64,000 bases of DNA from Sanderia malayensis (taxonomy: Eukaryota; Cnidaria; Scyphozoa; Semaeostomeae; Pelagiidae). A model generated the notes under the pieces. That model was not told where the DNA came from. It saw nothing but the letters and a program-made list of their open reading frames with translations, and made no database searches. The number at the start of each line of letters is the position of its first letter. Position 1 is the first letter of the stretch. The position numbers and the translations under genes are program-made. The stretch spans positions 3,348,001 through 3,412,000 of the forward strand of contig RQOL01000718.1 in the NCBI GenBank assembly GCA_013076295.1, written 5' to 3'. Of this stretch, positions 1,483 through 48,639 are shown one piece after another.

Positions 1483-3525
1483 ATGGCTGTAAACAGATCT
1501 AATGATGCAATCACGGCCATTGAGAAGACCCTGGGACCTGATGGTGCAGTTGTTGATGACTTTTTGGCCTTCACAGATCAATATGCTGATGAATGTTACA
1601 CAGCAGGTGATAAATTTGCCATGCCAGGCTTGAAAGAGAAGCCTGGTATTAGACTGATTGAAGCTGTTGCCCAGGACCTGCCACCTTATGAAGACAGGGA
1701 CAGTGAAGTGTATGATGATTACGATTTACAGCTGGCTGCTATAATCCATGCTGACTCCTCAAAATACCAGGCAAACACTGCACTATTGAAGATGGTGAAG
1801 GAATGGTTTATCTGCGGAAAGGAAATGAAAGCCATAAGTGAACAAGTCACGCCAGCTTCAAAAGATGACACTGGTGAAGATTTCACCAGCACAAGGAGCC
1901 ATGTTGTCAAGATGACATTTCTTGTAGATGGATGGATGTGCCGAGAATACATTGGTGATATTATTGAATCAGAGTTTGAAAGAAGAATTTGGCGTAAACA
2001 CATGAACAAAGTTGTGAAAGAAGGTGTCTGCTATGCCAAGGGCAAGGTATCAAAAGTGTTGGACGATAGTCTACGTAGGAATATTGATGATCTTGCCAGG
2101 AAGACAGCAGTTGATTACCATCCAAATTCTAATGACATCGTTCGTGATTTAGTGCATCCAGCTTTGTTCTCCTTCATTAAAGGGGTAAGTAAGTTGAAGG
2201 GAGGCAAAAACGTGGAAGCAACAGTTGAGGAGGATGACGGGAAAGATTTCTGGGGTCGACCATATGAGGGCTCAAAGTTTCAATGGCTGCCAACACCGTT
2301 CAAGGTAACAGATGCAGGAAAGTGCTTGATACAGGAATATGTGAATAATCTAGATCGCAACACATTCCCTGCACTTTACAATGATCTCCAGTCGCTTTTT
2401 GAGCTCATGTTGCCATACTTTGAGGAGACGTGGTCCTACGCCAAGGCAATGGAGTTCTTTGTGAATGAGGAAGATGATAATGAAGTTGACAAGATTCCAG
2501 AATTGGATAAAAAACCTGTTTCATTCCGGGGCAAAGAGTTGCAGATTATAACAAAGATTGTTGATTACACATTGCAACCTGGTCAGGCATACGAAGGAGT
2601 TTGGCATGCCGAAGGCATGTCTCATGAGAATATAGTCATGACAGGTATGTCTTGTGCCCCCTCCCTTATCTCTATTAATTCTGTCTGTCTTTATTTGCCT
2701 TGCTCTTCCAAGATGTTGGAGATCATGTATTTCCACAGCTTTTTTTATTTTGCTTTCCTCAGCAGCTCTTGTTCTTTCACACTCTTTTCTTTTCTCATTC
2801 TGTTACATTTGCCGTCCATGCTCTCAAACTCGTCAAATAATTTGTTCACTCCTTCAGCATTCTGTCCTTTAAGCTAGCTCAATCCAAAGACCATGCAAAC
2901 ATTTTCTTTAGCATGAGTGCAATCTATCAATCTTCAACATCCTTTACTCTGCACTGTTCAATTTTATATTGCCATTCAATCTATTGCCCCACCCCCTTGG
3001 ACTTTTTTCTTCGCAATTTGTCACTCTCCTCTACCCTGCTTATGCACCAATGACTGAATCAAATTGAATTATCTTTCAGGAATCTATTTCATTGACAGAG
3101 ATGCTAATATATCTGGCGGCGATCTGCGATTTAAGCGTGCATTTACAGTGGCTGAAAGAAACAAGGTGTTCTGGAATGTTCCCCAAACTCGCCCATACAC
3201 TGTCAATGAGTTTGCCTCAGATGGCCTGATCCCCCTGGGGTATTTCCCCACCAACCAAGGTTACCTCCTCGTGTTCCCCAATTGCCACATTCACAAGCTT
3301 TCAAAGATGGTAAACGAATCAACAACAGATGCAGCCAGTCGGCGCATCGTCGTATTTTTCTTCATCAACCCGGAGAAGAAGATCGTTTCGACCAGAGACG
3401 TGCCACCGCAACAGAATGTCATTGCCTTGAAAGACGCAAAGAACTACCGCCTGGAATTGATGGCTGAAAGAAAGTACGACAAAGCCAAACTGAACATCAG
3501 AGATATTGAACTATGCGAGCATTGA
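1483..3525 (+). CDS. DUF4246-type 2-oxoglutarate/Fe(II) oxygenase-like protein
   Basis: Two exons, 1483-2644 and 3080-3525, join in phase across a GT-AG intron (GTATGT...TTTCAG), giving 535 residues. The C-terminal half matches the DUF4246 family, known mainly from fungi and some invertebrates. A WHAEGM motif (His375, Glu377) is followed by a short aromatic strand, then FPNCHIHK (His457/459) and an Arg-Arg-Ile-Val strand (Arg475/476). This is the H-x-E...H...R layout expected for a double-stranded beta-helix that binds iron and 2-oxoglutarate. The N-terminal 350 residues are acidic and helical, with no motif I recognise. Substrate unknown. The ATG at 1483 follows an acceptor at 1459 with no upstream in-frame alternative. 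Assignment to the oxygenase fold is inference; family membership is fairly secure. Confidence 0.8.
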
Positions 3526-3670
3526 TTTATTATGTAGCTTCGATTTGTTTCAACTTTCTGCTCTGCTCGCTTGAATCTATAGTAGTATAGTTTGATAAAT
3601 GGGCATCTGTGTTAAGAAACATTTATGAATTTGTCGTTATTAGTAATATGTCAAGAGATATCATCTCCAA
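3526..3670 (+). other. 3'UTR region of the DUF4246-like gene
   Basis: AT-rich sequence after the TGA at 3523-3525. No strong AATAAA is seen before the foldback element that begins at 3671. Confidence 0.3.
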
Positions 3671-3972
3671 CCAGTGGCGTCGCCACGGGGTGGACTTGTC
3701 CACCCCAGTTTTCTCAGAGGTCGATTTTCTAATTTCTCGAAATTCGTTGAAAAAACTTTGGGGGTGATGTTCATTCACTCAGAACATCTGGGTGTGCAGC
3801 TTTCCTCTTTGATGCCCACTGTTACGAAAAATGCTGCTTGACAAAACTGCTTTTCCAAAATTTTCTAAATAGTTCAAAAATGCTAAAATGGGTGTTTCTC
3901 ACGTTTTCCGAGAGTCTGAAGGGCCCCTCGTTTTTGTCCACCCCAGTTTTTTCGAGCTGGCGACGCCCCAGG
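3671..3972. mobile_element. foldback/MITE-like element, hAT-type ends
   Basis: The left end CCAGTGGCGTCGCCA pairs with the right end TGGCGACGCCCCAGG. Inside both ends the phrase 'TCCACCCCAGTTTT' recurs (near 3698 and 3938). CAGTGGCGT-type ends are common on non-autonomous hAT elements. There is no coding capacity in the roughly 300 bp. No convincing target duplication was found. Confidence 0.6.
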
Positions 3973-5228
3973 GTTTAAAATACATATATGGTAATAATTT
4001 GTTATGTGATTGTTAAACGAATAATGACGCTTTATTTTTTAGACAATTGCGTATATTTTTATGCGTCTCTGCCCACTGATTTGCGTCTTGAATTTGAGGT
4101 GGCCACCCACTTTCTCCGCTCTCCGCTAAACCAAAACCATGCTAACTTGATCTTTTTTGTCTCGGAACAGAACGAGCACAAATGTTGTTGTCGTTGTTTT
4201 TTGAAGTGAATATTCTTCTGAACCTAAACCTACCTGGAGCGACCTGGACATGCAGCATGTGGCCTGGATTTTTTTAAGAGCTCAGTCCAACCGAACCGGG
4301 CTCAAGTGACAAGCCCCTTTGATATGGTTGTGAAAGGTGAGGTATTTTGACAAATCATTTTAATATGCACTAAAACGTGGTAATTTAATTCAAACTTCGC
4401 AAAAACTTAATCTTCTTAATTTAACAAACAAGCAAATAAAACGAAGATTTATTCATTTTCTGGCAAGCTCTATTTTTGGGTGCTCTATCTATTTTCTAGC
4501 TCTCTTAGGCGAGGCAACCCTACCTACCCCTACAACACAACTCAACTCCTCCCTCCTTTTGAGTCCATCATGTCTTGTCTTCACTTCATGCAAGAAGTCG
4601 TTCTTCTTTTTCTATCAGTTTTTTCATTTACTCCATTCCTTTACTCAGGTCTCCAAGCCCAACAATTTCCAGATAAAGATTGCATAGATCCGTAACGAAT
4701 TTATACCCACAAAAGGCTGCATGTTGCAAAGCCAAGATTAAACAGGCCATGAAGAACTCGCAGCTAATACAGATAAGTTGCTTTATTGTTATATTGACCT
4801 TTTGTAATATTGTGACATATATGGTTGGTTAAAATTGTCCAAGTATAATTTCCATCCAAGACACCTGGTCCTGATGGAATGTTATTACAATATTTTTCAG
4901 TTTACATGTGGGTATAACAAGAAACAATCTCAAGTGTCAGAGACATTTGAATGAAGAATGAAATTGCCCACCTGGTAAGTTTAAGTTCTTTTTACTACAT
5001 GTGTCACCTATTTGAATAAGCTTTCTAAACTTTGATAGACTCTGTGTACTTATTGTAGACCTTTGCATTTGTTTATTAGAGCTCCATTCTTCTTGTAGAC
5101 CTTTGAATTAAAGTGCAACTACAGCTTATTTTTATATTGGCTAAAATTGTAGATTTGAATGCGATCATTGTGAATCCGTTTATATTTTTTTGATATGACA
5201 AGTTGTTTTTGAGTTACTTTTATGTGGT
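3973..5228. other. intergenic, no gene seen
   Basis: AT-rich, with only short unconvincing reading frames. An exon-like acceptor/donor pair (about 4900-4974) is closed in all frames. At about 4855-4895 the sequence reads KTPGPDGMLLQYF, which recalls the start of a LINE reverse transcriptase domain and is related to the segment at 6095-6275. Confidence 0.4.
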
Positions 5229-5517
5229 CAACTTTTAGGACTGGGCGCGCCTACTATGACATCACAGTGGGAACCCTGTTTCTTTCTTTGAAATTTGAAA
5301 GGTCTGTGGGTGATAAGTTTCACAAGCCTTTAAAATTCCAATGCCATGATGTGCCGACCTGTTTCTAATCATGAAAGTAAAAAAAACAAATATTGACTCC
5401 ATATTTGATGACTCCATATTTGAAGAAACAAATCGATGTTAGATTTGTTTCTTCAGTACGGAAAAAAATGGGGTTCCTACTATGATGTCAGTACGCTCGC
5501 CCCAGTCCTAAAATTTG
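5229..5517. mobile_element. foldback element with about 48-bp inverted arms
   Basis: The left arm (5229-5276, containing TTTTAGGACTGGG and CTATGACATCA) is the imperfect reverse complement of the right arm (5470-5517, containing TGATGTCA and CCCAGTCCTAAAA). The interior is noncoding. Adjacent sequence repeats the phrase 'TTTATTAGAG...TTGTAGAC' on both sides (about 5070 and 5570), as if the element had landed in an older duplicated segment. Confidence 0.6.
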
Positions 5518-7079
5518 ACAAAAAAACTGAAAAACGGGGCTTCATTTTGGTTTTGGATCTTTGTATTAGTTTATTAGAGGTTCATACTTTTTTTAACTCT
5601 CATGTTTTTTGTAGACTGGGATTATCCGGAAGACATTTACAGAGTGAGGTAAAGACTGTCAAAGTTGCTGACTGGTCAAAGACAAGGATGAGACGTTTTA
5701 TCATGATCATATTTTTTGATTATAATGTCTTTTTCATTTATGCTTATTTTGCTCTTTAGTGTTTTAAATATCAACACTGTCACAAGCATGATGGGAGGAT
5801 TGATATTCCATGGGTCCCATTTTATACCTTGCAAGAAAAGGAGATTTTGTACTGCTAGAAACCAACCAAACAATTATATAGATCAATGGCTCTTGAAGAC
5901 ATTTTGATGTATGGTACGGGATATACATTTGACCAAAGCACTTGATGCTATCATAATACTTCAAATTTCACAAATCTGCTGTTTCTGAATGACGAAATCC
6001 TTCTTGCCTCTCATGCTTTTGACATTGTTCATTATATGAGTTTATTGTAATTTGACTTTCATTGTAATTTATTGTAGCGTTGGTGATGTAAAGAAAAGGA
6101 TATGCTTACCTCCTCTGTCGTTGCCAAGAGACCTGGTCCGTGTGGAGTGTTGCTGGAGTATCTTGTGCCGTATGGTCTCCATGGAACTGGTTAAGCTTAT
6201 TCTCTGGTTCACCTTGTTGGCAGCTCCTTGGTTGTCATTCTCCATTTCAAATGGTGAGAGAAATGTTTTATCTATTTTACTTCTCTTTCATGCTTATCAC
6301 ATGAATATCCAAGTTCCAAAAACTTTAAGGATTGGGCCAAAATGCTTGAGGTATCTGTTTACATTTCAACAACTCTATGAATACAGTTTGAGAAGGAAGG
6401 ATTTGTTATCTGTTAGCATCCAAAACTAGGAGATGTATTAAGCATTGTACGCGTCATCGTAGTTGAAGCCTGGGTCGCTGAATTTGATATCGGGCTGTTT
6501 AGACCTCACTCACGCAAGGGTATGCATCATAACCCCGATTTCCCAATTAGGTTAGGGTTCACGCATGCAAATGAATTTCTTTGTGCACTTATTTTATTAA
6601 GTTATAACGTTTTATAATTAGTCAGATTATTGATTTTTGATTTGTGTCTAGTTGATGGGCAATAGAGAATAGTTATCACTTTTTGAGTTTAAGATGAAGT
6701 ACGAGAAGTAAGGGTATATTTCTTGTGGTTTATCTTTTTATTTTTATGAATTTATAGCTTGCTTTTGTAGTTGAAGATTGTAGTACCAGCTGCCCTTTAT
6801 TAGTTTTATGAATTTTTTTAATCTGATGTTTTTTGCTATGCATGCAATGGTGTAATGCAGGGTTTGTACCTTTGAGCACAAAACTAAGGGTTCCCTGATA
6901 TTTGGCTTAAGGGCCCAACAATTCAAATTTATTTAGGTATAGGAGGCCCCCCACTGCTTCGTTACGCCAATGGATGGAAGCTTTTAGTAATTTGGTTTAA
7001 AACAGTTAGGAAGACTCCACGTGGCTGGTGCGAAATTTATTGATAAGGAACTGAGACAAAATCCAATAGAAGAAGTGTG
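5518..7079. other. intergenic, decayed repeat fragments
   Basis: No gene is supported. 6095-6275 is about 170 bp homologous, in inverted orientation, to 7912-8090 of the 8.45-kb unit (see separate entry). 6890-6975 ends in a CCACTGCTTCGTTACGCC block that resembles the end of a hAT-like MITE. Confidence 0.4.
6095..6275. repeat. dispersed repeat, possible reverse-transcriptase remnant
   Basis: About 170 bp align, as reverse complement, with 7912-8090 and its copies in the tandem unit. The shared core is 'AGTGTTGCT...CATGGAACTGGT'. One frame reads KRPGPCGVLLEYLVPYGLHGTG, which resembles the GPDG region of LINE reverse transcriptases, but stops interrupt both copies. On the opposite strand both copies end in a donor-like AG-GTAAGC. 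Confidence 0.4.
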
Positions 7080-7530
7080 TAACATGGATTTTAGTATCAG
7101 TATAAAGTTTTAGTATTTAGCTACGAGCCTAAGAATCTTCTATGCAAGAGATGGCACATAATATAGGCTTTACTGTCAGTGTAAAATGTTAGTATGTAGC
7201 TATTAGCTTAAGATTTGCAGCTCTGCAAACCTTCCAGGCAGCAAGTGACATATAATTTAAACTTTAGTATCAGTATAAAGTGTTAGTGTCTGAGCTTAAG
7301 GTTTGCAGTTACTGCCTGGAAAACCTTTCAGGCAACAAGTGATATATATTTTGAGCTTTGGTGGTAGTAGATTTAGCTATGGCGTAAGAGTTGCAAACCT
7401 TGTATGCAAAAATTGACGTATGATATTAGCCTATACGTAATATGAAGTACGTAATAGTAGTAATATGAATTGCTAGTGTGTAGCTGTGAACTTTGATTTG
7501 CAAGTTGATCTTTTAGAAGAGCAATGCAGT
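7080..7530. repeat. degenerate tandem repeat, about 75-100 bp unit
   Basis: Phrases such as 'ATCAGTATAAAG', 'GTTAGTGTGTAGCT', 'CTTAAGATTTGCAG' and 'CAGGCAACAAGTGA' recur in the same order about four times with many substitutions and indels. It lies directly left of the 8.45-kb array and has no open frame across it. Confidence 0.5.
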
Positions 7531-7911
7531 GTAGATATATGATTTTTTTTATTTTGTGCAAAGTTCTTCATTTGTTTGACGCCAAGTTTTTATCGTTTAA
7601 AATGCCCGAAATATAGTGGTGCATGCTCTTGTATTGTGTTGGTCGGCTGTCGTCTGATCAAATAATGATGATACGGCTTGGGGGGTGCAGTAAATGCAAT
7701 GACGCTATGGCCTACGGGGGGCAATGCTTAATACTCTCAGAAATATTACTGCATAGGAAATTTTGGCTTATTTGATAACAGGTTTCAATTTCCAACTTCA
7801 AAATCTGTATTCAACGGCCTTGTTGATTGTAATTTATACTTCATAGCCATTCTTTGTTATATTAATGTCTCGAACAAATGAACTTGGACATAGATTGTGA
7901 TAAGATTGTGA

Positions 7912-8090
7912 TTGAGTTGGATTATAGATGAATATTTCTCTGACCATCTTGAATGGAGATGACAACAAAGGACTTGTCGGCAGGGTAAGCCAGGGAATAG
8001 GTCACCAGTTCCATGGGTACCATATGGCATAAGGTACTTTAGCAACACTCAACGGCCCGGTCAAAGCAATGGCAGAGAAGGTAAGCGTAT
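7912..8090. repeat. dispersed repeat, inverted relative of 6095-6275
   Basis: Homologous by eye to the segment at 6095-6275 in opposite orientation, and repeated in copies 2 and 3 of the unit. On this strand it ends in AGAGAAG-GTAAGC, a good donor-like sequence. Frames are broken, so it is read as a fossil. Confidence 0.4.
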
Positions 8091-8380
8091 TCTTAATGAA
8101 ATATTAATTACTTCCTCCCACCTTTTACGGAACAGACCGTCCGGGACAAACCAGCAGCCGTAGGGACCTGGGGTGCCCTACGACTATATCCCCACCCCCC
8201 AGTTTCATCCTCCCCAGCTATCCCTCCCTGCTAGCCTATTTACTAATCTACCTATGTTTACTTACTTACTTGCTTCTTACTTATATATATATAGTTATTT
8301 TGCTATATTTGATGCTATGCTTCTATCCTAAAACTAATCTTTTATTTATCTAACCTATTTTACTCTTTGAAGATCTTGAA

Positions 8381-8967
8381 TTATCCTATGCCTATATTCC
8401 CAAGACACAGAAAACACAATGACCGGTTTTTAATAATAGATTCAACAAAGGTAGAAAAAGTAAATATGATAATCAATTGTCCATAAGATGAATTTGCAAA
8501 CAATATCTTCCATCTTCGTTGCTTGATTTCTTCGCCAAAATATCTGCAAAATAAGAGAGCAGGAATGAAAAATAATCGAACAACAAGATACAGCTAAAAT
8601 GTTTCAAAGAGCCTTTCTACGTCTAGAGTTTTGATCTGTCTTACATAACTTTGGGACAATGTTGAAAAATTATTTGATATCAAGGGTTAAAGGCTGAATA
8701 ACTGCGAAATTTCATCTGCTTGTTTCACATAAATTGTCTTCAAGTAGTCACCGAGAATTCACAATTCATCAACTCAAATATTTGGTAGAAAAATATAACA
8801 TTTTAGATAAAATACAGCCCATGAGTAACGACCTTCCTAAATAATCAACGCAAAAATGTCCTATTGCCATTGCCAAGGTTAAGTAAGATTGAAGTAAGAT
8901 ATTAATTCGATTACCTTTTATTTTCTTCTGAAATCTTTCTATTCGTCGAGTCCTTCGTCTTCTTCAT
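8381..8967 (-). other. possible small two-exon gene in the tandem unit
   Basis: On the minus strand an ATG at 8967 opens exon 8967-8915 (MKKTKDSTNRKISEENK) ending at AAAAG-GTAATC. An acceptor TTTTGCAG precedes 8543, and the second exon runs in phase to a TAA at 8383, about 71 residues in all. A related first-exon-like block recurs at 9305-9190 (minus; MKKTKISTN then a stop after 18 codons). The lysine-rich start vaguely recalls N-termini of some hAT-type transposase-like proteins. No known domain is evident, and chance is a fair explanation. Equivalent positions exist in copies 2 and 3. Confidence 0.2.
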
Positions 8968-9353
8968 TTTTGCGCCGCCATGACACCAAAAGCAGCAAAA
9001 TCCGACATGACCTTCCCTCTCCAGCTAAATGCGAAAATGAGTACGAATGAAGTGAAGAATAACTTCTACAGCCAATGCTTAGGCCTTACTACGGGCCTAC
9101 AGCAAACGATTTTAACGAAAGAACAATTCAAATTCGCCTTTTAGATACCCATAAATAGCGAATAAACATAGCAAAATACTTCCAGGTACCAGATAAGATT
9201 GAAGTAAGATATTAGTTCGATTACCTTTAACTCCCCTCCTTTTGAAATTTTTCAATGTTAGTTGATATCTTCGTCTTCTTCATTTTCCTGGCGCCATGAC
9301 CTTCTTCCCCCAGCACAGCAGCAGTTCAATGCGGCGAAAATAAACAATTATAC

Positions 9354-43386: not shown

Positions 43387-43394
43387 CACTTTTC
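43387..43394. repeat. target-site duplication (left)
   Basis: CACTTTTC, identical to 48632-48639, directly abutting the left terminal inverted repeat. Confidence 0.8.
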
Positions 43395-43435
43395 CAGGAA
43401 TGAAATGTTCCTGAATTTGGTACTTCTTCAACCAA
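43395..43435. repeat. left terminal inverted repeat
   Basis: 41 nt beginning CAGGAATGAAATGTTCCTG, matching the reverse complement of 48591-48631 except at three positions near the tip. Confidence 0.85.
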
Positions 43436-43630
43436 GAGAACAATACCAATACAAAACCTTTGTGCGTGAAGAGGAGGCTGGACATTAATGGCTACCGTTC
43501 TTAGGCCACTCTGCGCTGCAAAACAATTCATCCTTTCTGTATTTACAGTTTCAATTTCAACTTTCAATCTGGAATATTCTGTTACGTTTAGGTTTTTATA
43601 CATTTCATACATACGTTTGTGTTTTATGTA

Positions 43631-45311
43631 ATGGAATCCCAAAGCGATTTTCAGCCTCTAGCATCGGGTGAAGCAACCGGAGGAGAGCAACAGTTGGGAC
43701 AATCAGCAACAACGGTATATATTATGTCTTTCTATTTTCCCAACAAAAAGCGTTATGTTAATATAAATAAAATAACGAATGAGAATTACGCTTTTTAAAT
43801 CACGGTTTTCAGTTTTCTTTTTTTTTTATAGAAGTTTCGCGGCTCTGCTAAAAAGAGTTATTTAAAAGAAAAAAGAGAACGAACACGCACTGATGCTCGG
43901 ATGATTTCACGCCTCGATAAAATGGTCATAAATTTACAACCGTTTGTTGATTTGCTGTAATATCGGAGAATACTAACTATTTTTATTTTATTTTATTTTT
44001 GTTGTTATATTGCAGATGAAAGAATGGAAGATAAAAACAGAAATGCCAGCAGTTGCTTTGGCATTATGCAAAGACAAGAGTGGCAATCTGCAGATTAAAT
44101 ACATGGGTAATTTCATTATTTGTTTTGAATTATTTTGAGGCAAAGCAATCACTTGTATAGTTTGACCAAACTCAGGACAAAGTTTTCTGGCAGTTTTGTA
44201 GCTGATTTGTTATTAATGCTAAATAGCAAACTGAATAACATAATCTTTACATCTTTAACTTTACAATTGAAATGTGCATCTAGGTGATCCTTGCTTTGCT
44301 GAATTTGCTGAGCATCCTGTAGTGATGCAGCAGTTTAAGCAAGTGGCACTAAAGTGCATGAATATGCCAACTCAAATATCGTCAGATGATGCCAGTACCA
44401 TCAACAACAAGTATGTATAGGAATTTAAAGTTTAGATGAATATGTTCCCAGCATAATGTATTTATGGCTGATATATTTATGTGTGTGTTTTTAGGAGTTG
44501 ATCAAATTGTTATAAAATCATTAATGGAGGATGCTCAGAGCTTTCATATTGATGATAAAAGATCATTGATTTGCAAGCTTGTATTGGGCAATGGTATAAC
44601 ATTTGTTTTTGTAGCATGCTAACTTTTTTGTAGCATATGGAATTTTCTAATTAATGTTTATAGATGGTTTAACCTATGTATTTGTTTTTAAGATATCATG
44701 AAACACAATAAATGGCAGAGTGATCATAGACCAGTTTGGTGGCCAGCAGATATACATTTTGCCTCCCCAAATAGTTGTCCACGCTTTTGTGTTGAAATAT
44801 TAGACAAAATTCTAGAGAGTGCACAGGAGTATTTTGCTGGCCACCAAAGTGTGTTGGAATATGAGATGCCGAGAACACACTCAAGAATCAGAAGTAGAGG
44901 AGCAAGGACTCACTGAAGATGTTGTTGTTGGAGAAGTTGAAGAAGTAAGGGGTGCAGAAGTTCACACAACTGTTGACTCAGTACAAGATAGTGAACAAAG
45001 TAATAGCCAGCAAGGTTTTGTTTCAAGACAACCTGTATTGCTGACTGATATGCCCTGTTTTCAGGTTGGCTTACTTGCTTATTTGCAAGTTCATAAATAC
45101 ATTTTTTCAGTTAATCAAACCAAATATTGAATTTCTTACTGCATGAGGTCTAATTATTTTTATTACAGAATTTTACATGGAATCCTGCTGATTGTAAGTC
45201 GCTTATGCTTCAATTAGCTGGCTGTCCTACATTTTCTGAGCTGAAGAATTTGCTGGCTAGTTTACCTTCTTCACAAGTGCCTCCCAGAGATAACAACATC
45301 AGAAGCAAACA
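43631..45311 (+). CDS. rightward gene of the two-gene element (partial, into gap)
   Basis: Exon-like blocks: 43631-43714, from 43832 (lysine/arginine-rich, KSYLKEKRERTRTDARM), 44016-44106, 44284 to about 44410, 44495-44593, 44694-45064 and 45169 to the gap. A distinctive motif is HRPVWWPADIHFASPNSCPR followed by a helix. A strongly acidic stretch (ESEVEEQGLTEDVVVGEVEE) comes next, then NFTWNPADCKSLMLQLAG. I do not recognise the family. The phases of exons 2-3 and 4-5 do not chain cleanly, and near 44860 the coding-looking frame shifts by one base, so the copy may be decayed or carry sequence errors. Probably an accessory or DNA-binding protein of the element; that is inference. Confidence 0.5.
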
Positions 45312-45411
45312 NNNNNNNNNNNNNNNNNNNNNNNNNNNNNNNNNNNNNNNNNNNNNNNNNNNNNNNNNNNNNNNNNNNNNNNNNNNNNNNNNNNNNNNNN
45401 NNNNNNNNNNN
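45312..45411. other. assembly gap (100 N)
   Basis: Exactly 100 N, usually a placeholder of unknown size. It falls between the 3' parts of two convergent genes, so their C-termini cannot be read. Confidence 1.
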
Positions 45412-48400
45412 TTAGAAACGACGGGCCAAAAACACTCACCCGAAACATCAAATATATACTTTTGAGTGTAAAACTTCCTGTTATTTATCCATTGAATTTC
45501 AGTCGATAAATCCGCCTTGCAAATGCTGCACATAGATGATGCAAAGTCATCTATTATTATAAAACGATCTTCAACAGTGTCAACAATACCATTTAAAAAC
45601 CCAGTAAACAAACTTCTCTGAGAGTGCTGAACAGAGAATGGAATTTTCATTGTTGAAACTGCCGGGCGAGAGTATATCTTTGGTGCTGAATTTCGAAGAT
45701 ATTCATGTTGTTGAACCATATCAAGCAAACAATCAGGTATATCCGTGTCTGTTCCATTTCTTGCAAGAGTCGACTTTACGCAAGATATATGATTGCAAGA
45801 ATATCGAGTAGACGTGCAAGTAAAACATCTGAAACCCCTTCTATCAGCACCAACAATTCCAAATGAATCAAGTGGTGGCTTTACAATGACCATCGACTTT
45901 CCAGACAATGGTAGCTGAACAAATGTAGACAAACCCTGTCAAAAAAACCGTTCATGGTTACAGTGAATAAAGTATGGCCAAAGAGAGGTAACTTCTTACC
46001 CAATCGGCCCTTTTACACTGGCCCTAAATGGCGTTGGTTTTTGTTACACATAACATATTTTTATACTTTATAGGGATTTTATGTGAAAACCCGACCAGGT
46101 GCATACACTTGAAAACAACACGCATGAAAATATCAATATAAAAATGAGAACTTTTTTCCATGGGCAAGTTTAAAAGATGACAGAGATGACTTGATTTTGA
46201 ATACCAAAAACTGAGAGGATAGAAAAAGGGAGAAGGACAAAAACAAAATTAAAGAAAATGTAGAAAGCAGCAAGACAATCAACTTTGGGGAACAGAGCTC
46301 AGAAGTGCGAACAATATGAATCAATAATTAATTTCTTTTTATTAAGAAATTTGATAACAAATTACAGAATATATGTTAGGATTCACATAATTTGGGCAGT
46401 GTAAAAAGGGCCAATAAAGTACCAGACATGAAGTGGATAAAAGAAAAGTGGTTTGCAAGCTCAGATATCGCTCAATAATTTATTGTACTTTAGGAATATG
46501 GTTATTTTTGCCACTACCTGATGATACCAGTGGTCTGTGTATATCTCTATAAAACAATTGAAATTTGAAAAGTAATAGAGAAGTGTTGTTACAAAATTTA
46601 TAATTACATCAAAATTATTTGAAAATTGTGTTATTATGAAGCACAGCCAAGTATTTAAACATCACATGTTTAAAGTGGCATAAAATGTATTTGTACATGA
46701 TGTACATAAACATTTTACATACCTTCATTTATTGCTGGCATTGTTACTCCATTGAATATTTCCCAAACACTGAACACTTCAAAGCATATCTTTATATGAA
46801 TGCAGTCAGCAAATTTTTCTTTAAGCATCTCCTTAAGCTCTGTATGAAAAAGGGGTTTACAAAAGTTTCACAAAAGTTACAACCAATGTTTCAAACCAGA
46901 GCAAGACTTTTCTATTGCCTTATCTTGACATAGTTGGTATGAAATGGTAGATGACCATGTCAATGACAAACAGCACTGTGGGATTTGAACCCACAATCTC
47001 ATTTCTAATTCTAGAAATGTGTGTTGCTGTTACACCAAGTGCTGGTAGACATTGTCACTGAAACAGGTGTCTAGTATTAACTAAACTGGCTCATATTAAA
47101 GTAATGTGCAATAAAACCAATTGATATATTTTAACTTACCTTGTGCACCATGATTAATTTCTCTGTTTAAATTTCTAACAAAGTCAGAACGCCCTTCATG
47201 GCAAGAACAGTAATACACCCATTGCAGATTATTGTAACACTTAATGGGAACCCTTGACACAATACAGTACCTCTGAAGCTAAAAATATTTCAAAAATATA
47301 AAAAATTACATTCTATTAAATTTCCAAAAGATAATAAACAATAGCATGACAACAAAGGCTGAAAAATATTACCTTCAACATCTGCCTTTCAGTATCAAAA
47401 TCTTGAATGAGGTAATCAGTATTTCCGCATATTTGCATCACTGATTTTGCTTTCAAAACTTGAAAAAGATATGACTGCTCAACAACAGACATGCCCTATA
47501 ATATGAAAAATATGTAGAGTATTGTCATGATGGTTCAAGTAAAGGGAGCCCCTATACCAGAAAGTTTGATTTCTGCATGCGGAAGATAGTTTTTCTCATC
47601 AAACTTGACACACTACCGCCATAGCAGCACCTCTACTAAGGTGGTAGTGTTTGATGGTGGTAGTGTTTGACAAGTACAATTTTCAATTTTGCGCACTTGA
47701 TTGGCAGTTTTGCACCTGGCAGTTTGTTTGTATGTGCAAAATCTTCTACATGCAGTACATACTTTCTAGTCTGGGGAAGCCCCATTTCTAAGTTAAGAAC
47801 TCTTTGCCACAAACTTGGGGGTACCTGGTCTCTTTGTTTTAGTACTCATCATTCTAAGCTACTCTGCCATTTTTTGCAATATTGCAATTTCCACACATTC
47901 CATGCGAGAACAAGCTGACAATACAACAAGCATACATTGCAATAGCATATATGCAAACCATAAACATCCTAATACCTGTCCACTTGATTTGGTGTCACTG
48001 TCACTCCTTCTTGACCAATTTGCATTTCGCTTCCAATAGCCGTAGATCTATTATCTAAAATAAAATAAAAAATTTAAATAATCTCACTTAACACACAGGG
48101 TAAGATATCCTATATTCGTTAAACAGTGAACGCCGCCCATATACCTTACCTGGTACAGAGTTTTGCTGTGGCACATAAAAGCCAATACCATCGTCCTCAT
48201 CACCACCACCATCACCAACATCATCATCCTCGGTCAATTCCATATTATTCAGTGGGTCAGGGTTAATTACTTTCTTTTTCGGGCGGCCTTTTGGTCTCTT
48301 TCGCCCTGACAATTTAGGCCTCCTTGGGAAAATTGTATAAGCAGGCAGGCCTTCATTTGGACCAAACACATTATCTGGTCTGTTAAAAGAGGACGAACAC

Positions 48401-48489
48401 AATTGAAAATGTTGGCGGATGTTTTCTCTCCCTAACCCAAGCTCGGGCCTTCCAACTATTTCTCTGTTCGTTGTATTTTCTTCTGCCAT
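45412..48489 (-). CDS. leftward cysteine-rich gene of the two-gene element (partial, transposase candidate)
   Basis: Minus-strand exons: 48489-48150, 48054-47976, a tentative 47914-47863, 47495-47373, 47278-47140, 46839-46723, 46546-46518 and 45935 down to the gap at 45412. All phases agree if the tentative exon is used. The first exon carries a basic AT-hook-like KRPKGRPKKK and an acidic run. Later come YYCSCHEGRSDF, then RRGFRCFTCTSTRYSCNHIS (C-x2-C...C-x-H, SWIM-like) and DDFASSMCSICKADL (C-x2-C). Such cysteine clusters ahead of a C-terminal catalytic region recall KDZ-type transposases, but no catalytic residues are visible before the gap. About 480 residues can be read. Family assignment is inference. 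Confidence 0.6.
46971..47044 (-). tRNA. tRNA-like sequence (pseudo-tRNA or SINE head) in an intron
   Basis: The minus strand starts CAGCACT and ends AGTGCTG, a perfect 7-bp acceptor stem. D-stem GTGT/ACAC and T-arm GTGGG-TTCAAAT-CCCAC are intact, and the B-box GGTTCAAATCC is perfect. The anticodon arm is abnormal: a 5-bp stem closes a 10-nt loop instead of 7. So it is folded like a tRNA but unlikely to be a working one. It lies in an intron of the leftward transposon gene. Confidence 0.5.
47544..47783. mobile_element. nested MITE-like element in a transposon intron
   Basis: The left end GGGAGCCCCTATACCAGAAAG is the imperfect complement of the right end CTTTCTAGTCTGGGGAAGCCCC. The interior has two adjacent 'GGTAGTGTTTGA' repeats. 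Its insertion explains the long intron between the exons at 47914-47863 and 47495. Confidence 0.5.
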
Positions 48490-48590
48490 CACATCACAAC
48501 ATCACAAGTGGGTCAGGCAATTCATGCAATGCCGCCGCCATATACAAATGGCCTCATTTGGGGATATGAGTGAACACGTGATAAAGTGTG

Positions 48591-48631
48591 TTGGTTGAAG
48601 AAGTACCAAATTCAGGAACATTTTATGCCTC
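48591..48631. repeat. right terminal inverted repeat
   Basis: Reverse complement begins GAGGCATAAAATGTTCCTG; pairs with 43395-43435. Confidence 0.85.
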
Positions 48632-48639
48632 CACTTTTC
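48632..48639. repeat. target-site duplication (right)
   Basis: CACTTTTC, identical to 43387-43394. Confidence 0.8.

Follow-up and report, generated by a model that had tools for sequence, protein, structure and literature searches.

What kind of element, if any, do the 43395 to 48631 positions of this 64,000-nucleotide stretch of the Sanderia malayensis genome (contig RQOL01000718.1; the whole stretch is hereafter the window) represent? Two multi-exon genes run inward here from a pair of terminal inverted repeats (TIRs), and a sequence-only reading had proposed a new two-gene DNA transposon. Our results support a KDZ (Kyakuja-Dileera-Zisupton) cut-and-paste element of about 12.1 kb, with 41-bp TIRs, 8-bp target-site duplications (TSDs), a KDZ/CxC4-type transposase, a convergent second gene (P2) and a conserved tRNA-like element within introns. 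We give this reading, including the roles that we infer for its parts, a probability of about 0.78. The KDZ superfamily is known; new are the partner gene with NRF1-like, OTU-like and PHD-like parts and the conserved intronic tRNA-like element, a combination that we did not find described. Literature searches at the level of titles and abstract openings, which covered few subscription papers, turned up no KDZ element with an OTU domain, no transposon carrying an NRF1-like domain and no DNA transposon with a conserved tRNA-like element.

A mobile element and its KDZ transposase

The anatomy proposed from sequence is upheld in most respects. A repeat finder returned the TIR pair as 40 nt at 95% complementarity, the outermost base being the third mismatch in 41, and an exact 8-bp duplication, CACTTTTC, abuts both ends. 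Splice models confirm the two inward-running genes. The length of about 5.2 kb does not stand, as a 100-N assembly gap conceals the core. A gap-free copy on contig C598 (C598:48043-60130) is 12.1 kb long (12,087 bases) and matches the window copy at 99.7% over 1922 bp and 99.9% over 3225 bp, one stretch on each side of the gap, which corresponds to C598 element positions 2121-9066. The gap therefore conceals some 6.95 kb of an element of about 12.1 kb, and the window carries only the outer parts of both genes. Judged by C598, the gap contains P2 exons 8-10, a tRNA-like element in a P2 intron, the intergenic part and, for the transposase, exons 8-13, which encode the D-D-E residues. In the window copy two P2 exons and one transposase exon differ by one base in length from C598, so that both genes are interrupted there unless these are assembly errors.

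The genome searched comprises 184,004,477 bases in 918 contigs. Its 25 matches to the left end resolve into 13 left ends (two without their outermost bases), 2 internal fragments and 10 right-end TIRs, and a search with the right end agrees. The recurrence of the same ends across the genome rules out a chance TIR. Where other copies match C598 over long stretches, they are about 87% to 99.9% identical to it; some copies resemble haplotype duplicates with similar flanks, so independent insertions are fewer than copies counted. Each of the three copies with pairable intact ends has a perfect 8-bp TSD, and the three differ: CACTTTTC in the window, CAAATCTC at C598 and GTCTTTTC at C781. Empty sites were sought with queries that joined 150 bases of flank from each side through a single copy of the TSD. 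For C598, paralogous repeats cross the junction in all 40 scored candidates (best 40 of 74) at 89-98% identity, 36 spanning query positions 1-300 and 4 spanning 1-282. For C781, the 40 scored candidates likewise cross it, at 91-95% (best 40 of 109 rows, the other 69 being partial secondary matches). For the window copy the genome search matched only both halves at its own locus and no empty site was found.

The TIRs are thus not unique to this locus, and further copies and two empty paralogous sites exist. Many introns, together with nonsynonymous rates (dN) below synonymous rates (dS) in both genes, might be expected if these were host genes beside incidental TIRs, a possibility that multiple near-identical copies, TSDs and empty sites rule out. 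The ~12-kb element has been recently active, and its anatomy supports cut-and-paste movement driven by the transposase, which would cut and insert through its D-D-E core.

Some features of the copies are recorded as observations. Each of the three TSDs has TYTC as its last four bases, which may reflect a target preference; three cases are too few for a test. Contig C859 carries two left parts (6078244-6085167 and 6093651-6100574), inverted within 22 kb and with different flanks, both of which stop matching near the same internal position, about element position 7098. The C405b copy is without a 1.34-kb stretch between the convergent genes (C598 element positions 3689-5027) that other copies have.

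The minus-strand gene, a 13-exon model, is a predicted KDZ transposase placed through its relatives, in agreement with the assignment of the cysteine-rich protein as a KDZ-like transposase. It has D-D-E residues in an RNase H-like fold, the catalytic core lying inside the window gap, and relatives 33-51% identical in Rhopilema, Clytia and molluscs, the closest being scyphozoan. Three of 16 matches are labelled KDZ and seven CxC4. The KDZ model PF18758 is carried by relatives 36-38% identical over 91-97% of the region (3 of the 16 matches). When seven relatives were rescored, P0002 reached 26.2 of the required 26.6 bits and the other six had no match. Scanning the proteins for KDZ and CxC domains, as the sequence-only reading had suggested, succeeded in part: a piece of the C598 protein matches PF18758 (E=1.7e-4, 21.8 bits) and the CxC4 model PF18717 (E=0.0035), both below cut-off, and the whole C598 transposase has no PF18758 match. 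PF18717 is above cut-off in 3 of the 7 rescanned relatives (P0004, P0010, P0015), just under it in P0002 and without a match in P0001, the closest relative. With a transposase relative as query, Foldseek returned nothing at E<=0.001. When the genome was scanned with PF18758, 121 matches were listed, all at other places and none a copy of the element; the genome thus holds a diversity of KDZ elements, and the lineage of this one has diverged too far for the Pfam model.

As judged by this homology, the element belongs to the KDZ lineage and not to a new superfamily; the proposal of a new transposon holds for a mobile two-gene element and fails for a new superfamily, given the KDZ/CxC4 relatives. 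Nor is heavy intron content unusual for a cut-and-paste element, as had been thought, since Zisupton transposons are described as multi-exonic (PMC9297572). TSDs of 8 bp are given for Zisupton and a Dileera family (PMC12730594). The element thus resembles the superfamily in its homologous transposase, D-D-E residues, 8-bp TSD and many introns, and differs from it by adding the convergent gene and the conserved intronic tRNA-like element.

The partner gene and its NRF1-like, OTU-like and PHD-like regions

P2 lies on the plus strand, convergent with the transposase; its model comprises 10 exons coding for about 583 residues, and more 3' exons may belong to it. It encodes, in order, an NRF1-like region, an acidic linker, an OTU-like region and a PHD-like half-finger; a divergent P2 at C475, 43% identical overall, has the same parts in the same order, acidic linker included. 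Beyond the window's family there are 13 divergent P2 loci at 33-55% identity (best 75 of 249 candidates), of which 10 have a convergent transposase at 2.4-10 kb (C303:4.87M, C876, C303:0.89M, C350, C771:4.8k, C415, C453, C686:4.52M, C303:5.75M and C475), taking the best 90 of 597 transposase places. The same 90 include none near P2 at C686:5.18M, C303:2.55M or C781:3.83M. Many transposase places (C482, C571 and C726 for example) have no P2 among the matches listed, so P2 may belong to only part of the KDZ diversity in the genome.

In diverged copies the ratio dN/dS for P2 is 0.41 (C303a), 0.47 (C303b) and 0.35 (C404a), with 7, 3 and 1 stop codons skipped respectively, and for the transposase 0.53 (C771), 0.57 (C303c), 0.33 (C591) and 0.26 (C404b), with 1, 3, 0 and 2 skipped; the values carry no significance test, and the C859a and C781 copies have diverged too little to be informative. 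These ratios suggest that P2 is maintained much like the transposase. Protein searches for P2 relatives returned none at E<=0.001 among 3317 candidates, and none at E<=0.01 among the best 7997 with a two-family alignment; both used short exact-word seeds and bounded lengths and do not demonstrate that relatives are absent.

Residues 44-189 of P2 align with positions 29-172 of the Pfam model Nrf1_DNA-bind (PF10491) at E=0.0025-0.004, colinear over 145 residues, and the region alone reaches E=4.4e-4. If the element were an ordinary KDZ one whose P2 had an unrelated DNA-binding domain with a WWP-type motif by chance, this would account for the shortfall of the window family (20.5 bits against a cut-off of 23.5) and for direct PDB matches to NRF1 at only E=0.9-1.4, once behind an unrelated chain (6pol). 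We consider this unlikely in view of the colinear match, which is found in both families, and of wider occurrences in the genome. A scan with the Nrf1 family recovered the host NRF1 gene at C479 (E=2e-111, one exon covering 212 of 213 positions) together with 12 other, short, non-host places, of which 7 reach or exceed the PF10491 cut-off. One of these, at C758, reads GSQKPNWGKEDCKPFWWPTSIPF, matched human NRF1 structures at E=1.4e-7 and has a convergent KDZ-type transposase about 5 kb away. Convergent transposases accompany 3 of the 12 places among the matches listed (C758, C478 and, at 12 kb, C679), and the same matches show no near one for the other 9. Conservation of individual residues also bears on the question. 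R206 of NRF1, which contacts bases (PMC10810270), aligns with a conserved R in P2.

P2 resembles NRF1/EWG/P3A2 in its colinearity with the DNA-binding and dimerisation model, in the retained R206 equivalent and, in one family, in a KPxWGKExCKPxWWPxxIP-type motif. It differs at N242/R244, where NRF1 reads ANVR and the window family ASPN, and in the fusion of its NRF1-like region to OTU-like and PHD-like parts, the host having a separate NRF1 gene. The NRF1 target GCGCATGCGC is absent from the 12,087 bases of the element, in which TGCGCA occurs once. The host domain is encoded in one exon (C479:2475304-2475936) and the transposon version in five.

In the OTU-like region, C365 (in GDGTCLYRS) and H504 (in NVDHVIPL) are conserved in both P2 families, and we take them to be the catalytic Cys and His of OTU proteases, with predicted activity. 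PF02338 matches P2 below cut-off (E=0.05). The best PDB matches are a chain labelled RNA-dependent RNA polymerase (E=0.011), presumably a viral OTU domain, and OTUD5 (E=0.07-0.08). For the PHD-like half-finger PF00628 is likewise below cut-off (E=0.001-0.004); of the C4HC3 zinc ligands, C-x2-C-x4-H-x2-C and C-x-C alone are conserved.

Such domains have a precedent. Ginger1 DNA transposons of Hydra carry OTU or Ulp1 domains, joined in one family by PHD domains, and their authors suggest a role for these proteases in transposition (PMC2836005). By that account the Ginger1 protease is fused to a Gypsy-integrase-like transposase, whereas here it would be a separate protein beside a KDZ transposase. 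The element is not a Ginger1: its transposase relatives are KDZ/CxC4 and its OTU-like exons lie in the gene on the other strand. Fungal KDZ relatives carry TET/JBP in place of a P2-type gene (PMC12730594), where it is thought to act as a helper. By analogy, P2 may be an expression or anti-silencing helper. Its protein could bind DNA via the NRF1-like domain, either that of the element or host promoters, and its OTU protease could deubiquitinate chromatin or the transposase. The earlier view of the partner as an accessory protein fits this separate convergent gene with its three regions; neither these regions nor the intronic tRNA-like element had been noticed in the sequence-only reading. A separate OTU-type helper would thereby be added to the KDZ superfamily, in parallel to TET/JBP in fungi.

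A tRNA-like element in the introns

A tRNA-like cloverleaf sits in the P2 intron that precedes the first OTU exon and has been copied from there into transposase intron 4, where it lies on the sense strand. Rfam returned five tRNA matches at 44-53 bits (gathering score 29), all in the sense orientation: in the transposase intron of the window and of C598, and in that P2 intron of C598, C475 and C781. A C598 copy occupies element positions 2259-2333. When a short segment surrounding the C475 copy was scanned later, no match was listed. In all three forms the cloverleaf is the minimum-energy fold (z -3.7 to -4.1), and 71 of 71 positions of the tRNA model are matched. Between C598, C475 and C781 the element is 83-89% identical over all columns, against 35-53% in the flanking intron (shuffled 35-49%) and 54-74% in exon 7 (shuffled 51%). 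Within introns of a cut-and-paste transposon, a tRNA-like element is thus more conserved than the neighbouring coding exon.

The full match to the model and the cloverleaf fold would suit a transposon that carries a tRNA gene used in decoding, as would box A and B motifs that by eye appear intact against their consensus. The anticodon arm is abnormal, with an extended stem and an odd loop, ARAGORN assigns no amino acid to the window family and different ones, Pyl and Ser, to the C475 and C781 forms, and no run of four T occurs within 15 bases downstream of the C598 copies. These points make a decoding tRNA very improbable; the absent T run also makes a gene for RNA polymerase III less likely.

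Short interspersed nuclear elements (SINEs) are commonly tRNA-derived, and a SINE inserted by chance into the introns would share the cloverleaf with its internal-promoter-like boxes. Within its family, the copy in the transposase intron shares 94-96% identity across 116 bases with most of those in the P2 intron, as after a recent duplication or insertion. Distribution argues otherwise. Searched at the DNA level with the window form, the genome gave 31 matches; 30 fall in element copies or at listed P2 loci, and the last (C771:22093) shares its strand with transposase exons that begin 8 kb downstream of it; with the C781 form there were again 31, 30 in the same places plus C303:5750944, another P2 locus. 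All 31 matches of each search are hence in, or near and on the same strand as, these genes, although such searches skip very common words, which limits the claim of confinement. The 64-kb window has no other tRNA match at the gathering score. Three families share the intron and orientation, with the identity given above against near-background flanks. Unlike tRNA-derived SINEs, the sequence is conserved from family to family and, within the searches made, occurs only in introns of a single transposon lineage, and on this confinement and conservation we regard the SINE explanation as quite unlikely.

The conserved tRNA-like element occurs at 9 of the 13 divergent P2 loci, the others being C415, C453, C303:2.55M and C686:4.52M. 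Among nine distinct rows 94.6% of cells are paired (reached by 8 of 500 shuffles), two pairs have double changes (30 of 500) and the covariation score is 0.091 (5 of 500). Covariation is weak evidence here, because one double change comes from a single decayed copy and the 5' part of C350 is rearranged; the case rests on conservation, fold and position. The element may be cis-acting: it could bind TFIIIC or serve as a barrier, or it could be a signal for RNA processing that determines the choice of isoforms.

A bolder proposal would make P2 of this KDZ lineage an old source or sister of NRF1/EWG/P3A2, that is, a core animal regulator domesticated from a transposon accessory protein, with the tRNA-like module kept by selection and controlling expression or insulation of both genes. 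We hold it tentatively, as rather doubtful. The DNA-binding mode of NRF1 is reported as novel (PMC10810270). Tying this domain to a mobile element would make the origin of NRF1 testable by a tree.

Positions of the features

The extra base in P2 exon 4 would break the frame there in the window copy, or is an assembly error. Splice models are those of C598 mapped to the window.

Table 1. Features of the element in the 64-kb window.
Feature	Positions	Strand	Basis or remark
Left TSD, CACTTTTC	43387..43394		abuts left TIR
Left TIR, 41 bp	43395..43435	+	repeat finder
P2 exon 1	43631..43714	+	C598 splice model
P2 exon 2 (NRF1-like region begins)	43832..43924	+	C598 model
P2 exon 3 (NRF1-like)	44016..44106	+	C598 model
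P2 exon 4 (NRF1-like)	44284..44410	+	mapped; 1 base longer than C598
P2 exon 5 (NRF1-like)	44495..44593	+	C598 model
P2 exon 6 (RPVWWPADIHF, NRF1-like end, acidic segment)	44693..45064	+	1 base longer than C598
P2 exon 7, cut by gap	45169..45311	+	OTU and PHD-like exons within gap
Assembly gap, 100 N standing for ~6.95 kb	45312..45411		comparison with C598 copy
Transposase exon 7 (cysteine-rich)	45440..45935	-	C598 model
Transposase exon 6	46518..46546	-	C598 model
Transposase exon 5	46723..46839	-	C598 model
tRNA-like cloverleaf, transposase intron 4	46970..47044	-	Rfam RF00005, 49.1 bits
Transposase exon 4	47140..47278	-	C598 model
Transposase exon 3	47373..47495	-	C598 model
Transposase exon 2	47976..48054	-	mapped; 1 base shorter than C598
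Transposase exon 1 (AT-hook-like RKRPKGRPKKK, acidic run)	48150..48489	-	C598 splice model
Right TIR, 41 bp	48591..48631	-	repeat finder
Right TSD, CACTTTTC	48632..48639		abuts right TIR
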